A stretch of 32,769 nt of DNA from Thermoplasmata archaeon (GTDB lineage Archaea > Thermoplasmatota > Thermoplasmata > Halarchaeoplasmatales > Halarchaeoplasmataceae). Shown in pieces: positions 27,960 to 32,769 of the stretch. The notes beneath the pieces were generated by a model that was given only the letters and a program-made list of their open reading frames with translations, had not been told where the DNA came from and made no database searches. Position 1 is the first letter of the stretch. Each line of letters opens with the position of its first letter. The position numbers and the translations under genes were made by a program. The stretch covers positions 1 to 32,769 of the forward strand of contig PUNG01000126.1 in assembly GCA_003551675.1 (NCBI GenBank), written 5' to 3'.

Positions 27960-28007
27960 GTCTATCCTTTATCACTCTAGCATAATTTCTCAATCTACTC
28001 ACTGATG

Positions 28008-28077
28008 AAGCGAGTAGCTATCGGAAGCAAAGCCTCCAAAACACTCTCGAAATTCGCATACGCTCATTTCTGCGAGT
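28008..28077. repeat. 70-bp direct repeat, copy 1
   Basis: Begins AAGCGAGTAGCTATCGGAAG and ends in CATTTCTGCGAGT. It matches 28188-28257 at an exact 180-base offset, with about 6 differences clustered at the left. The core AGCGAGT..CTATCGGAA also recurs, degenerate, at 28071. The surrounding stretch 27960-28314 has no supportable gene; it consists of these repeats and short hairpins such as CAGGAAC-AAA-GTTCCTG (28127-28143). Confidence 0.85.
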
Positions 28078-28187
28078 GGCTATCGGAAAGATTTTCACTA
28101 ACACACTCCAACTTGCGAGGGTTCCACAGGAACAAAGTTCCTGTTCACTCTCGCTTTACTCGCTCAAAAAAAACCTTTTCGCTCCTA

Positions 28188-28257
28188 AAGCGAGTGACGA
28201 TCGGAAGCAAAGCTTCCAAAACACTCTCGAAATTCGCATACGCTCATTTCTGCGAGT
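28188..28257. repeat. 70-bp direct repeat, copy 2
   Basis: Second copy, containing the perfect hairpin GGAAGC-AAA-GCTTCC (28203-28217). Similarity continues past the repeat into ACTCCAACTTGCGAGGG, which in this copy is the first bases of the tRNA-Leu gene. In copy 1 the same string (28106-28121) is followed by unrelated sequence, so the first 8 bases of the tRNA gene seem to have been duplicated along with its upstream region. Confidence 0.85.
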
Positions 28258-28314
28258 TACGCGGAAAAGATTTCCACTAACACGCAAGTTTCGCTCGTAA
28301 ACTCACTCCAACTT

Positions 28315-28399
28315 GCGAGGGTAGCCAAGCATGGCCAACGGCGCAAGGTTCAGGGCCTTGTCCCGTAGGGGTCCAAGGGTTCGAATCCCTTCCCTCGCA
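28315..28399 (+). tRNA. tRNA-Leu (anticodon CAG)
   Basis: A complete class II tRNA. The acceptor stem is GCGAGGG/CCCTCGC with discriminator A, and the D-arm begins TAGCCAAGC. The anticodon stem is CAAGG/CCTTG around the loop TTCAGGG, giving anticodon CAG, which reads CUG. The long variable arm is CCC-GTA-GGG, and the T-arm is AAGGG-TTCGAAT-CCCTT. CCA is not encoded; a run of seven T follows the discriminator base immediately, as expected for an archaeal RNA gene terminator. Confidence 0.96.
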
Positions 28400-28462
28400 T
28401 TTTTTTGATAAAAAAATGCATTAAAAACATGTAGGGCTATCTGCGATAGCCCTTAAAAAAAA
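28397..28462 (+). repeat. Two-hairpin element, left copy (behind tRNA-Leu)
   Basis: Hairpin 1 is GCATTTTTTT-GAT-AAAAAAATGC (28397-28419), its 5' arm using the last bases of the tRNA. A spacer ATTAAAAACATGT follows. Hairpin 2 is AGGGCTATC-TGC-GATAGCCCT (28433-28453), followed by an A-run. The same element occurs at 31516-31580 and, lacking the first arm, at 31581-31628, with compensatory base changes in the stems. It could double as the tRNA transcription terminator through the T-run. Confidence 0.85.
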
Positions 28463-28510
28463 CAAGGCTGTATATAAATAGACTTTGAGTTCCATTCCTA
28501 CGCATACGCA

Positions 28511-28616
28511 GGAAGGCGACAGCCTTCCGAAGTAAAGAGGGACTTATGTCCCTCGCATTTTCAATATTTTCGAATGAACAGGAGAAAATGGAAAGTGAAC
28601 AGAATCCTTGATTCTG
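28511..28616. repeat. Cluster of short perfect hairpins
   Basis: Three further perfect 7-bp inverted repeats with 3-4-base loops lie in ~105 bases: GGAAGGC-GACA-GCCTTCC (28511), GAGGGAC-TTAT-GTCCCTC (28537) and CAGAATC-CTT-GATTCTG (28600). The second arm of the middle one runs into TCCCTCGCATTT (28549-28560), which repeats the last bases of the tRNA and its T-run. There is no supportable gene between 28463 and 28820. Confidence 0.7.
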
Positions 28617-28819
28617 TGGCATTCAATTACCTTTCCGAGAGTAGCGAGGAATGTGATTGAAAAGGAGGAGCGAACGTAGTGAGTTCCTACGCATACTTTT
28701 ATTTTTCTGGATGGTTGAAGAGTTGGAGAAGTAGAGAGATATTTTGTATACAAATAGGCGTTAATTTCCCCGTTATTCAGCCAAGATATACTGCACAGCC
28801 TTTCCAATAAGAGTTAGAA

Positions 28820-29320
28820 TGTAAGGATGACGCCGAGGAGGAGATTCAAACGGTAAGTATAAAATTCGACTTAATCGGACGGTATTGATGAAGCAACACC
28901 TGCACTCTGTGTATAGACTGCGATCACAGCGGCAGAGAGCCTCAATAATCTACTTCGAATTAGGTTAGGACCCACAAATTAGGGTGTAATAAATCACCGT
29001 AGAGAAAGCCACTGACGCTGTGAGAGAGAAGTTAGTTATAGATGAAAGGAATCTTAAGAAGGTAGACGACACGGTGCTGGTAAAAATTTATAATGAGTCC
29101 TTCGATAGAGGCTATCAGCAAGGGTTTAGGCAGAGAGAAAAAAGGAGGAGAGGCGGAGTTGATATCATGTAAAAAGAGGTCTTCTGCGGTCTGTATTTCA
29201 CTTTGGAGAGTTGGCTGATTCCGAGCTATTTTCGACGGGCGGAATTCCTGCATCAAACGGAGATGGTGTGCCAAATTCTAGAGGAAGACATAACTCATAT
29301 TAAATTCGTTATGTCCTCCT
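28820..29320 (+). other. Decayed or non-coding stretch with fragments of reading frame
   Basis: No intact gene is seen. On the plus strand several short frames follow each other with stops or frame changes between them. One starts near 28828 and includes EEEIQTVSIKFDLIGR. One at ~28880-28965 contains HSVYRLRSQRQRASIIYFELG. A GTG-started frame at 29020-29172 (50 residues) contains IYNESFDRGYQQGFRQREKR. One ends GIPASNGDGVPNSRGRHNSY at a stop near 29303. They may be remnants of a dead gene or insertion element, but no family could be recognised. The base composition is less GC-rich than in the gene block to the left. Confidence 0.3.
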
Positions 29321-29370
29321 CAACTAGTCAAAGACGTAGAAAAAATCAGTAAAAGTTACGTCTTTGACTA
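29281..29370. repeat. Pair of adjacent long inverted repeats
   Basis: First pair: GAGGAAGACATAAC (29281-29294) with GTTATGTCCTCCTC (29308-29321), 14 bp with one mismatch. Second pair: TAGTCAAAGACGTA (29325-29338) with TACGTCTTTGACTA (29357-29370), a perfect 14 bp with an 18-base loop. They lie ~75 bases before the promoter of the GLUG gene and may be terminators of an upstream transcript, an operator, or ends of a lost mobile element. Confidence 0.7.
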
Positions 29371-29441
29371 TCGTTTGGTAACAAATAGATTTGAAAATCA
29401 GGATAAAAGTGGAAGGAGAAAGGGAGGAGGGTGTCGTAATA

Positions 29442-29450
29442 TTTATATAA
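29442..29450 (+). promoter_or_regulatory. TATA box of the first GLUG gene
   Basis: TTTATATAA, ~84 bases before the ATG at 29530. This implies a leader of ~55 bases, unusually long for this window. The leader ends with GAGGG 7 bases before the ATG. Confidence 0.5.
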
Positions 29451-29529
29451 AGACAAAAATGTGTAGAAGCGTTACGAGTTTAGGTGAAAGTAAATAGAAA
29501 AAAAACAAAGAGGAGAAGAGGGATAAAAT

Positions 29530-31293
29530 ATGGAAGGTAAAATGAGAAGTGTATTGGTCTTTGGTGTAGTGATACTGCTAGTAGGAAGTGTTTTTGGTGT
29601 AGCTCTTGCTTCTGAGTATGAGGTAGAAACTGAAAATCAAGAGACATTGACAGACCAAGGCGTTGCTGAGGAGAATCCGACGGAAATCCACGACTGGTAT
29701 GATCTCAACGATGTGCGGGATGATTTGAACGGCGATTATGTATTGATGAACAATCTGGACGAAGATACTGAGGGTTATAACGAATTGGCCGGAACTGATG
29801 CGAATGATGGGAGAGGGTGGGAACCGATAGGTGAATGGTGGAACCCCTTCAACGGAAGTTTTGATGGCAACGGATACAGGATAGAAGAATTATATATCGA
29901 ACGTCCGGAAGAAACTAGTGTTGGATTGTTCGCACAAGTTGGATGGTATGATTTCAATGCCACAGTTAAAAATCTGAATCTGGTCGATATAGAAGTTACT
30001 GGCAGTTCTAACGTTGGAGGACTTGTGGGAGGAAATTACGGCATCATAGAGAAATCGTTCGCTAGTGGAACGGTAAGTGGAAATCACACTGTTGGAGGAC
30101 TTGTGGGTCAGGCTTGGCTCGATACCCGTGTAAGAAATTCTTACTTTGTGGGAAATGTAACTGGAGAATTAAAAAGTGAGATGGGTATCGTAGGCGGTCT
30201 GGTAGGGAGCGCCAGGGGTGAAGTGATCAATGCCCGTGCGGAAGGTATGGTGGCAGGAAGTAAAATAGTCGGCGGGCTTTTGGGGATTGGACATGCATCA
30301 AATTCAAGCGCATCGGTAGATGTGATGGGAGAGGAAAACATTACAGGCGGTCTTGTAGGCTCAGGAGGTGCTATAAATTCTTATTCTGTAGGAAACGTAG
30401 AAGGAAAAGAAAGGGTAGGCGGGCTCGTAGGAGAGAACAGTGGCACAGTAGAGAACTCGTATGCTGAAGGAGATGTGAGCGGTGAGGGGTTTGTAGGCGG
30501 GCTCGTTGGATTGAATGTTGATTCGGTGGAGAACTCGTATGCAACGGGAGACGTGAACGGCGAGGAAGATGTTGGTGGGCTCGTTGGATTGAACTACGAA
30601 GTCACGGTGTCGAACTCGTATGCAACGGGAGACGTGAGCGGTGACTGGGGGGTAGGCGGGCTCGTTGGAACGAACAGTGGCACAGTAGAGAACTCGTATG
30701 CCACTGGCAATGTAAGCGGTGATAGTAGTGTAGGCGGGCTTGTGGGGTTGAACGAGGAGGGCACAGTGGATAACTCTTACTGGAACATCGAAACTAGCAG
30801 GCAGAATGAATCTGATGGTGGCGAAGGCAGGACTACAGAAGAGATGACATGGGAATACGATGAAGATACATATGAAGGATGGGATTTTGAGGATATTTGG
30901 TTGGATGGAAATCATGAGTTTGTAGAAGATCATGAAGAAAATGCAGGTTATCCTGCCCTACGATGGCAGGAGGAAGAAGTCGAACTAACGATTAACATTG
31001 ATGGAGAGGCCACGGTAGAAGTCGACGGTGAAGAAGTCGAAGACGGCTGGACTGGGACCTATGAAGATGGTACGGATGTAAACCTGAAAGCGATCCCAGA
31101 AGAAGGCTGGTACTTCGTCGAGTGGACAGGAAACTATGAGGGAACAGAAGAAGAGATGACCATAACGATGGACGAGGATAAGGAGATAACAGCCCACTTC
31201 GAAGAAGATGAAGACACCCCAGGATTTACATCCATGATCCTAGTTCTTGGTATAATAATTGCCGTGGCGATATACCAGAAAAAGAAGCAGTAG
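29530..31293 (+). CDS. Secreted GLUG-repeat surface protein with PGF-CTERM-like anchor
   Basis: A 587-residue predicted cell-surface protein. A signal peptide covers residues ~1-27 (VLVFGVVILLVGSVFGVALA). A conserved HDWYDLNDVRDDL region lies near 55, and a GLUG-repeat β-solenoid spans ~150-420 with about nine units of the form VGGLVG.N.G.V.NSYA.GDV.G. Residues ~480-555 form an InlB/Flg_new-like repeat ending ITAHFEED. At the end, TPGF (563-566) is followed by a hydrophobic helix and the basic tail QKKKQ. The last element resembles PGF-CTERM signals processed by archaeosortase A, but this is judged by eye. GLUG proteins are typically adhesin-like. The gene lies between the two copies of the tRNA-linked element and is paralogous to the gene at 31740. 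Confidence 0.9.
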   Translation: MEGKMRSVLVFGVVILLVGSVFGVALASEYEVETENQETLTDQGVAEENPTEIHDWYDLNDVRDDLNGDYVLMNNLDEDTEGYNELAGTDANDGRGWEPIGEWWNPFNGSFDGNGYRIEELYIERPEETSVGLFAQVGWYDFNATVKNLNLVDIEVTGSSNVGGLVGGNYGIIEKSFASGTVSGNHTVGGLVGQAWLDTRVRNSYFVGNVTGELKSEMGIVGGLVGSARGEVINARAEGMVAGSKIVGGLLGIGHASNSSASVDVMGEENITGGLVGSGGAINSYSVGNVEGKERVGGLVGENSGTVENSYAEGDVSGEGFVGGLVGLNVDSVENSYATGDVNGEEDVGGLVGLNYEVTVSNSYATGDVSGDWGVGGLVGTNSGTVENSYATGNVSGDSSVGGLVGLNEEGTVDNSYWNIETSRQNESDGGEGRTTEEMTWEYDEDTYEGWDFEDIWLDGNHEFVEDHEENAGYPALRWQEEEVELTINIDGEATVEVDGEEVEDGWTGTYEDGTDVNLKAIPEEGWYFVEWTGNYEGTEEEMTITMDEDKEITAHFEEDEDTPGFTSMILVLGIIIAVAIYQKKKQ

Positions 31294-31330
31294 CACTTCA
31301 TAGATACGGGTAAAAATCTGTAAAAAACCA

Positions 31331-31342
31331 CTTCTTTTTTCT
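31331..31342 (+). terminator. T-rich terminator after the first GLUG gene
   Basis: CTTCTTTTTTCT, 38 bases after the stop; archaeal transcripts often end at such T-runs. The rest of 31294-31504 holds no gene I can support. Confidence 0.35.
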
Positions 31343-31504
31343 TATCCATAGCAATTTAGAGCAAACAAACAAGAAGAACGGAAAAAGTGTTTTGAACCGT
31401 AATGATGATGGACCCAGCGCACACTGAACCTTAGATTTACGTGTAGATACACTAGAGCCACTGGCGAGGATCGTACCGTAGTTGTATACAAATTGGCGTT
31501 AGGT

Positions 31505-31632
31505 TCCCTTCCCTCGCATCTTTTTTCGAAAAAGATGCATCAAAAAGATGTTAGGCTATCCAAGATAGCCTATAAAAAACAAAAATGCATTAAAAACATG
31601 TGGGGCTATCTACGATAGCCCTTAAAAAAAGC
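31505..31632 (+). repeat. Two-hairpin element, right copies, with duplicated tRNA-Leu 3' end
   Basis: TCCCTTCCCTCGCAT (31505-31519) repeats the last bases of the tRNA-Leu gene (28386-28400). Hairpin 1 follows, GCATCTTTTT-TCG-AAAAAGATGC (31516-31538), then hairpin 2, TAGGCTATC-CAA-GATAGCCTA (31552-31572). A second partial copy at 31581-31628 keeps the spacer and hairpin 2 (GGGGCTATC-TAC-GATAGCCCT) and is nearly identical to the left copy over ~45 bases. Both stems differ from the left copy at positions that stay paired. Confidence 0.85.
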
Positions 31633-31689
31633 AGATACATTCATAGACTCCAGATTCTTTCGTCCTTGAATATAACAGGTGCCTTGACC

Positions 31690-31739: not shown

Positions 31740-32769
31740 ATGAAAGATAAAATGATCGTATTTGCCATCGCACTCTCTCTGCTCTTCAGCGGTATGCTGA
31801 TAGCGGTTGGAGGCGAGGCGGAAGAGGGAAAAGTTGGTGAAAAGGAAGCGGCCCAAGAGATTCACGATTGGTATGATCTAGATGCGGTGAGGGAGGACCT
31901 TTTAGGCGACTATATTTTGATGAACGATCTAGATGAGAACACGGAAGGTTATGGTGAATTAGCCTCTGAACAGGCTAACGAACTAGTCGATAGAGGTAAT
32001 TGGGAAGAGAACACCATATATGAGGCGAATGATCTAGTTGAACACGAAGGTCTCAACTACTACTCCATAGAAGAACACGAGAGTTCGGAAGATTTTGAAG
32101 AGGACGAGGACTACTGGATAGAGACCGATAAAGAAGGTGGTGATGCTCTGGGCTGGAAACCATTGGGCGATGGGGATTCACGGTTCCATGGAACCTTCGA
32201 TGGTAACGGATACGAGATCAAAAACGTCTATGTGGATAGGTCTGCCGAAGGATATATAGGATTATTCTGTTACGTTGGTGAAGGAGGAGTGATAGAAGAT
32301 GTAGGTGTGATCGATGTTGATATAGTAGGAGAGGGGAGTACGGGAGGACTTTCCGGGCGTAATGAAGGGGTTGTAGACAACTCATACGCTACAGGATACG
32401 TTCAAGGCTCTCGCACCGGAGGACTAGTAGGAGGAAATCGTTATGGTGAGATATCTAACTCATATGCCGATGTGTATGTCGTAGGAGAAGTTCGGGTAGG
32501 CGGCCTTCTAGGACACAATTATAAAGGAGAAGTATCCACTAGTTATGCAATAGGAGATGTATATGGGATCGATGAAGTCGGTGGTTTTGTAGGAAGTAGG
32601 AATTGGCTGGGAACGATATCAGATTGCTATTCGACTGGAAGCGTGACACGTATATCGGGCACAAGCACACAGTTCGGCGGATTCATGGGTCGTAACCAAG
32701 GAGGACACGTTCAAAATAGTTATTCAACAGGGAGTGTTCACTACGAAGATTCTTCAGACCCCACTAACA
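31740..32769 (+). CDS. Secreted GLUG-repeat surface protein, 3' end outside the window
   Basis: The frame is open from the ATG at 31740 to the window end (343 codons). A strong ribosome site, GGAGG, lies 5 bases before the ATG. It has a signal peptide (~residues 5-25, IVFAIALSLLFSGMLIAVGG), then IHDWYDLDAVREDLLGDYILM, which closely matches the first GLUG protein. Residues ~80-137 are an insertion absent from that paralogue (NWEENTIYEANDLVEHEG...YYS....YW); its spacing of aromatic residues resembles small chitin-binding modules of the CBM5/12 type. A GLUG β-solenoid then begins near residue 190 with units such as TGGLSGRNEGVVDNSYATG. The C-terminal part and any anchor are not visible. Confidence 0.88.
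   Translation, partial: MKDKMIVFAIALSLLFSGMLIAVGGEAEEGKVGEKEAAQEIHDWYDLDAVREDLLGDYILMNDLDENTEGYGELASEQANELVDRGNWEENTIYEANDLVEHEGLNYYSIEEHESSEDFEEDEDYWIETDKEGGDALGWKPLGDGDSRFHGTFDGNGYEIKNVYVDRSAEGYIGLFCYVGEGGVIEDVGVIDVDIVGEGSTGGLSGRNEGVVDNSYATGYVQGSRTGGLVGGNRYGEISNSYADVYVVGEVRVGGLLGHNYKGEVSTSYAIGDVYGIDEVGGFVGSRNWLGTISDCYSTGSVTRISGTSTQFGGFMGRNQGGHVQNSYSTGSVHYEDSSDPTN

Follow-up and report, generated by a model that had tools for sequence, protein, structure and literature searches.

The tRNA-linked repeats (TLRs) of Escherichia coli have been known since 1978, and they are modeled in Rfam by the RtT family. They comprise 22 repeats at ten loci, and the 3′ end of each repeat shares 18-19 identical bp with the end of the tRNA or rRNA gene before it; the tyrT/rtT repeats and the RrA, RrB, and RrF small RNAs (sRNAs) are among them, and the tRNA-borne TLRs are without known function (PMC8144298). 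Duplications of tRNA 3′ ends, 14-15 bp in length, are also made by casposases, and that of Methanosarcina mazei consists of the last 4 tRNA bases and 10 bases downstream (PMC6977970). Here, we describe a locus behind a tRNA-Leu gene of a Thermoplasmata archaeon that is probably a tRNA-linked repeat array, in which copies of the tRNA end would allow recombination to duplicate and relocate hairpin modules and surface-gene units. Its anatomy, the match between end copy and host tRNA, the covarying hairpins, the tandem copies, and the sharing of units across loci and genera were directly observed. The stretch analyzed (the window; 32,769 nt) is the entire contig C2 of the source genome G000 (2.29 Mb, 94% complete), and C2 therefore holds no DNA past position 32769. 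Coordinates without a contig label are window positions, and the other G numbers denote relatives. We take the family to be uncultured archaea of soda lakes; one relative, a Thermoplasmata archaeon metagenome-assembled genome (isolate T1Sed10_119m), is presumably from soda-lake sediment, as its isolate name suggests.

A sequence-only reading of the window had proposed that the 3′ end of tRNA-Leu(CAG) is repeated at 31505 along with a two-hairpin element trailing the tRNA. We found the repeated string, TCCCTTCCCTCGCAT, at 28386-28400 and 31505-31519 in direct orientation and at no other window site, even when 2 mismatches were allowed. Shuffled sequence averaged 0.08 matches. Its tRNA part measures 14 bases, since the final base is the T behind the tRNA. 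The trailing element is duplicated as a diverged copy, the 87 nt from 28379 being 78% identical to those at 31498, and a further partial copy (31581-31633) is closer to copy 1 (94% over 53 nt). The 15-mer alone makes up the 5′ half of the 87-nt match; the tRNA bases further 5′ are uncopied at 31505, and a conserved arm, TTGTATACAAATTGGCGTTAG (31482-31502), stands in their place. Between the two 15-mers lie the GLUG gene, the decayed reading frames, and the inverted repeats that had been noted there: one gene at 29530-31293, frame-shifted remnants, and palindromes. The features of the locus are as follows.

27992..28313, + strand: upstream hairpin modules of the tRNA-Leu array (direct repeats D5, D6, and D13), some opening with a copy of the tRNA-Leu 5′ end (GCGAGGGT at 28115).
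28315..28399, + strand: tRNA-Leu(CAG), by ARAGORN and Infernal; the repeated string (28386-28400) is made up of its final 14 bases and the T behind them.
28397..28465, + strand: Leu element copy 1, consisting of hairpin 1 (28397-28419), a linker, hairpin 2 (28433-28453), and an A-run.
28470..28505, + strand: degenerate arm and tRNA-Leu-end-like string (GTATATAAATAGAC...TTCCATTCCTACGCAT), putatively TATA-box-like; the same string lies 3′ of the element at C64, C1, and C54.
28505..28693, + strand: two-hairpin Leu modules with the ends ..CCTCGCAT, ..GTGGCA, and ..CTACGCA; copies in G000 only at tRNA-Leu loci and on C125.
28744..28765, + strand: arm TTGTATACAAATAGGCGTTAAT with a decayed tRNA end.
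28950..29160, + strand: decayed reading frame (..VDDTVLVKIYNESFDRGYQQGF.., from three-frame translation); similar DNA lies behind tRNA-Leu(GAG) of G004.
29530..31293, + strand: GLUG-repeat surface-protein gene 1, 587 amino acids (aa), with Glug and InlB B-repeat domains and a hydrophobic C-terminal stretch.
31482..31519, + strand: unit end, i.e., arm TTGTATACAAATTGGCGTTAG and tRNA-Leu 3′ end copy TCCCTTCCCTCGCAT (31505-31519); arm and end also in G002, G003, and G004.
31517..31580, + strand: Leu element copy 2, the subtype with the AGGCTATC/GATAGCCT stem; near-identical copies on C1, G003 C100, and G003 C127.
31581..31633, + strand: partial third copy of the Leu element, comprising linker and hairpin 2.
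31740..32769, + strand: GLUG-repeat surface-protein gene 2, cut at the contig end and continuing on C125:1-969.

The two-hairpin form of the modules at 28505..28693 is based on the predicted fold of their C64 homologues. The upstream modules match, in G000, contig ends that lead into tRNA-Leu genes (C64, C54, C5, and C91). The 5′ side of the tRNA mirrors the 3′ side, with modules before tRNA-Leu opening with GCGAGGGT or GCGAGGGTAGCC (window 28115-28322; L085; L065:11080-11135), and contigs C5 and C91 stop within such a copy of the tRNA-Leu 5′ end.

An assembly search placed the Leu element directly 3′ of all five tRNA-Leu genes of G000, namely, CAG (C2), CAA (C64), GAG (C119), TAG (C1), and TAA with an intron (C54), with additional copies inside the arrays (C64:523, C1:13389, C2:31505, C2:31581, and C125:1309). 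These arrays have sequence in common, C64 and C2 being 95% identical over 380 bp. Among the relatives, G001, G002, G003, G006, and G008 carry the element, mostly behind tRNA-Leu and in a genome-specific sequence flavor; there, too, palindromic modules that begin right at the tRNA end stand between the tRNA and the element. Across 18 copies, 91% of the cells were paired and compensatory changes were present, and in hairpin 2, pairing reached 97.5% of the cells despite changes on both sides. The sequence-only reading had noted that a direct repeat of a tRNA 3′ end is the classic attL/attR mark of an integrated element. A single event of this kind was ruled out because the Leu element trails every tRNA-Leu gene; moreover, the end motif occurs in several species and tRNA ends are duplicated at many tRNA genes. 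We also rejected an insertion sequence reading, the helix-turn-helix transposase-like fragment behind tRNA-Leu(GAG) being found at no other Leu locus read. This frame remnant, read by eye, lies 3′ of the Leu element at L003:180-400 (G000:C119).

The other possibility raised from the sequence, tandem duplication of a unit made of tRNA end, hairpins, and GLUG gene, is the better reading. The first 142 bases of contig C125 equal the last 142 of the window with one mismatch, and C125 carries the array onward past 32769 with a near-copy of the unit end and a third unit behind a near-identical junction. The order from C2 to C125 is tRNA-Leu, element and modules, GLUG1, end, element, GLUG2, end, module and element, and a third surface gene, which encodes a 1907-aa protein with GLUG, InlB-like, and carboxypeptidase-regulatory-like domains. 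The junctions after GLUG1 and GLUG2 are near-identical on both flanks and differ by a block starting from GCAT, the C125 modules that are absent from the window, a pattern of tandem unit duplication in which modules were gained or lost. Conservation extends to the unit end: the arm followed by TTCCCTTCCCTCGCAT was also found in G002 (C88 and C96), G003 (C100 and C127), and G004 (C85), with the 16-base end exact in all of them, and C125 and G009 have a slightly altered arm and end. There are 15 arm sites in the family, most of them in a tRNA-Leu array or less than 3 kb from a tRNA-Leu gene, compared with 2 for a reversed-pattern control. We had at first favored a chance likeness of the 15-mer at 31505 to module ends such as TTCCATTCCTACGCAT, but dropped it because the exact TTCCCTTCCCTCGCAT end is kept behind the same arm in several species.

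In G003, a PQQ-repeat surface gene lies directly behind tRNA-Leu(CAG), without the Leu element, and a homologous gene in G008, which belongs to another genus, lies behind tRNA-Leu(TAA) and a GLUG gene (L150:1572-2953 and L148:4297-5678). The two genes are 88% identical at the DNA level over 1389 bp versus 66% for the adjoining FKBP and adenylosuccinate synthetase region, and the stretch they have in common opens exactly at CCTCGCAT, the true tRNA end in G003 and an arm-borne copy in G008. Surface-gene units therefore appear to travel from one tRNA-Leu locus to another, and from genus to genus, the tRNA end being their boundary. Such identity between genera, behind different tRNA-Leu genes, may be a sign of recent transfer. 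In relatives, compared as the sequence-only reading had suggested, the unit end recurs in several species, and no clean empty site was seen among the loci read; the tRNA-Leu(CAG) of G003 abuts the PQQ gene. Beyond the Leu array, genes are rearranged: one block follows tRNA-Leu(TAG) in G000 but comes after the tRNA-Leu(CAG) array in G003 (L150:3393-8001; L142:4000-9566).

An att-like reading may still draw support from this exact start of the PQQ unit at the tRNA-Leu end in two genera. It forms the main rival, in which a tyrosine recombinase acting in trans excises units and inserts them at the tRNA 3′ end, the arm and tRNA end are the attachment site, and the surface genes are cargo in tandem attL-cargo-attR-cargo arrays. 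The conserved arm adjoining 14-16 bp of tRNA end in several species fits this model as well, and every family genome has an Xer-like recombinase. However, we saw no integrase in the interval, in agreement with the sequence-only reading, and the sole tyrosine recombinase match (PF00589) in the 94% complete genome sits on C127, away from the array, with one such match in every relative. A viral collection searched for the arm and the Leu element gave no match, and the model does not sit well with modules of 50-150 bp at a dozen tRNA types, each with a different end. We consider such integration unlikely. In several family genomes, tRNA-Lys and its repeat module have the Xer-like recombinase gene at most a few hundred bases away, in opposite orientation (L214, L215, and L238 versus G003:C97, G001:C14, and G011:C28).

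Units of the same construction stand behind many other tRNA genes. Covarying hairpin modules of about 50-150 bp were found behind tRNAs for Ala, Val, Gly, Lys, His, Tyr, Arg, Glu, Ser, and Asp, and such a module closes with a 12-20-nt copy of the 3′ end of the tRNA before it. When the tRNA genes of G000, G001, and G003 were scanned, 13 of 101 were followed, in the next 400 bp, by a second copy of 12 nt or more of their own 3′ end (Ala, Val, Lys, Gly, Ser, Tyr, His, and Arg), compared with 4 of 9438 comparisons with ends of other isotypes; the distance from tRNA end to copy was mostly 101-107 bp. Inspection sorted the modules into three types, i.e., I (Ala, Val, and Ser), II (Gly, Lys, His, Tyr, and Arg), and III (Arg-TCT and Ala of G003), and one type can serve different tRNAs with the tail alone altered to match. 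Tandem copies occur as well: tRNA-Tyr of G002 is followed by three with a period of 104, and tRNA-His of G003 by two. The type II core was built into a covariance model, R1, which matched all 16 family genomes and 6 of 184 other genomes of the class; over the phylum, two more genomes gave weak matches, and no tRNA was seen at their loci. Among the R1 loci fetched, 85 of 116 matches lay less than 700 bp behind a tRNA on the same strand, 65 of them within 120 bp, and many of the others were near contig ends. At 61% of the 85 tRNA-linked matches, at least 12 nt (12-20 nt) of the own tRNA end follow, against 0.4% for other isotypes, a control with equal bias from R1 ending in GAATCC and so overlapping the start of the end copy. 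Two outgroup matches, behind tRNA-Gly of G105 and tRNA-Leu of G039, have 16-base copies.

The lengths of these end copies resemble those of casposase duplications, which are known at 14-15 bp at tRNA 3′ ends including the CGCA of tRNA-Leu (PMC6977970), so that Cas1-like insertion of small elements, with the repeats as target-site duplications, could be proposed. In M. mazei, however, the duplication takes in the last 4 tRNA bases and 10 downstream, whereas here it reaches 12-20 bases into the tRNA, and inspection by eye showed no terminal inverted repeats for the Ala, Val, and Gly units. We dropped this explanation as very improbable because the geometry does not fit, the copies lying inside the tRNA.

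The modules are strongly structured on the strand of the tRNA. In R1, all 19 pairs vary on both sides, and 92.2% of the cells pair versus 66.9% in shuffled and at most 48% in slid alignments. On the tRNA's strand, G.T cells number 150 and A.C cells 54, an excess that favors pairing of this strand, as RNA or as single-stranded DNA. The predicted folds of types I and III have an outer helix closed by the tail copy, and the stretch preceding the type II core paired with its own tail better than with the tails of other isotypes (40 of 54; P = 0.0007). With the tRNA-end copy as the 3′ strand of the outer helix, modules of types I and III, and in part those of type II, would imitate the acceptor/T-arm of their tRNA and are predicted to resemble an acceptor/T-arm minihelix with extra hairpins. 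From the general properties of RNase Z-type enzymes, these would be expected to cut behind such a minihelix.

Alternatively, the modules could be DNA palindromes, similar to repetitive extragenic palindromes (REP) or miniature inverted-repeat transposable elements (MITEs), that merely tolerate tRNA flanks and acquired their end copies by slippage, with no role as RNA. They are indeed palindromic, repeated, and concerted within genomes, and other MITE-like palindromes occur near tRNAs; however, their strand-specific position behind tRNAs, the host-matched end copy, and the G.T excess on the sense strand make this explanation quite doubtful. One MITE-like palindromic insert of ~90-100 bp (..GGAAGACATAACTCAT...TATGTCCTCC.., ..AAGACGTA../..TACGTCTTTG..) lies near several tRNA genes (window 29282-29371; L040; L041; L031), and a copy of it breaks the tRNA-His module of G000.

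In the tRNA-linked repeat array that we favor, tandem units follow a tRNA gene and share its strand, each closing with a copy of that tRNA's 3′ end. At most tRNA genes, the unit is a two-hairpin module of 50-150 bp, and at tRNA-Leu, some units additionally carry a surface-protein gene. Recombination or gene conversion, with the repeated tRNA ends and the hairpin elements as partners, may duplicate, move, and remove units, so that surface genes may be exchanged through the tRNA-Leu loci. Provided that they are transcribed, the end copies might be processing sites at which an RNase Z-type enzyme releases small tRNA-like RNAs. Among the mechanisms considered, turnover by recombination or gene conversion is the best supported; the sequence shared among arrays and the tandem units point to it, as does G003, where the tRNA-Leu(CAG) array is joined to the gene that lies behind tRNA-Leu(TAG) in G000, an exchange that misassembly at repeats could mimic.

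Several observations weigh against the favored explanation. The second 15-base copy lies 3.1 kb from the tRNA, and the Leu modules nearer to it hold just 4-12 nt of the tRNA end. Most Leu-array modules indeed keep no more than that, so that it is their position and common hairpins that assign them to the array. A site-specific recombinase would equally give an exact start at CCTCGCAT, and the assemblies break at these repeats, so some junctions (G003:C100 versus G000:C1) are possibly misassembled. In a broader version, archaeal genomes would have a general system whose structured units, directed by a tRNA 3′ end copy, are inserted or converted behind that tRNA, act as processed tRNA-mimic RNAs, and at tRNA-Leu form a cassette platform shuffling surface genes between loci and genera; this is offered as a tentative suggestion that may well prove too sweeping. 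With an archaeal set separate from that of E. coli, strongly covarying and spread over many tRNA isotypes, comparison can test structure, host matching, and turnover, and the Leu arrays connect tRNA-end repeats with the movement of surface genes that lack an integrase of their own.

No description of archaeal tRNA-linked repeats was found in the open-access literature, to which our survey extended, subscription papers being outside its scope. A scan of the entire window against Rfam at the gathering threshold gave no match, and cmscan of ten array loci at E values up to 1 returned tRNAs and two weak, unrelated matches below the cutoffs, without RtT. The present repeats are therefore of the same kind as the E. 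coli TLRs by architecture rather than by sequence homology to RtT. In both sets, structured repeats directly follow tRNA (or 5S) genes in tandem, numbering one to five at a locus, and, here at many tRNA genes, the repeat 3′ end is identical to the end of the upstream gene. The present repeats differ in being archaeal, in comprising several module types over many tRNA isotypes, in the surface-protein genes carried by units at tRNA-Leu, and in the occurrence of some end copies with no tRNA. The tRNA-integrated elements (archaeal SSV/pNOB-type elements and genomic islands) likewise place a direct repeat of a tRNA 3′ end around cargo, but here no integrase lies in or beside the interval, the hairpin element and end motif recur at many loci, units stand in tandem, and small modules carry no gene. 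Casposons are similar in their 14-15 bp duplications at tRNA 3′ ends, with tRNA-Leu favored, whereas here the duplication lies inside the tRNA and terminal inverted repeats were not seen. Finally, the array loosely resembles integron cassette arrays, with tandem single-gene units that each close with a hairpin-rich, recombination-like site, although the end sites here are copies of the tRNA end.

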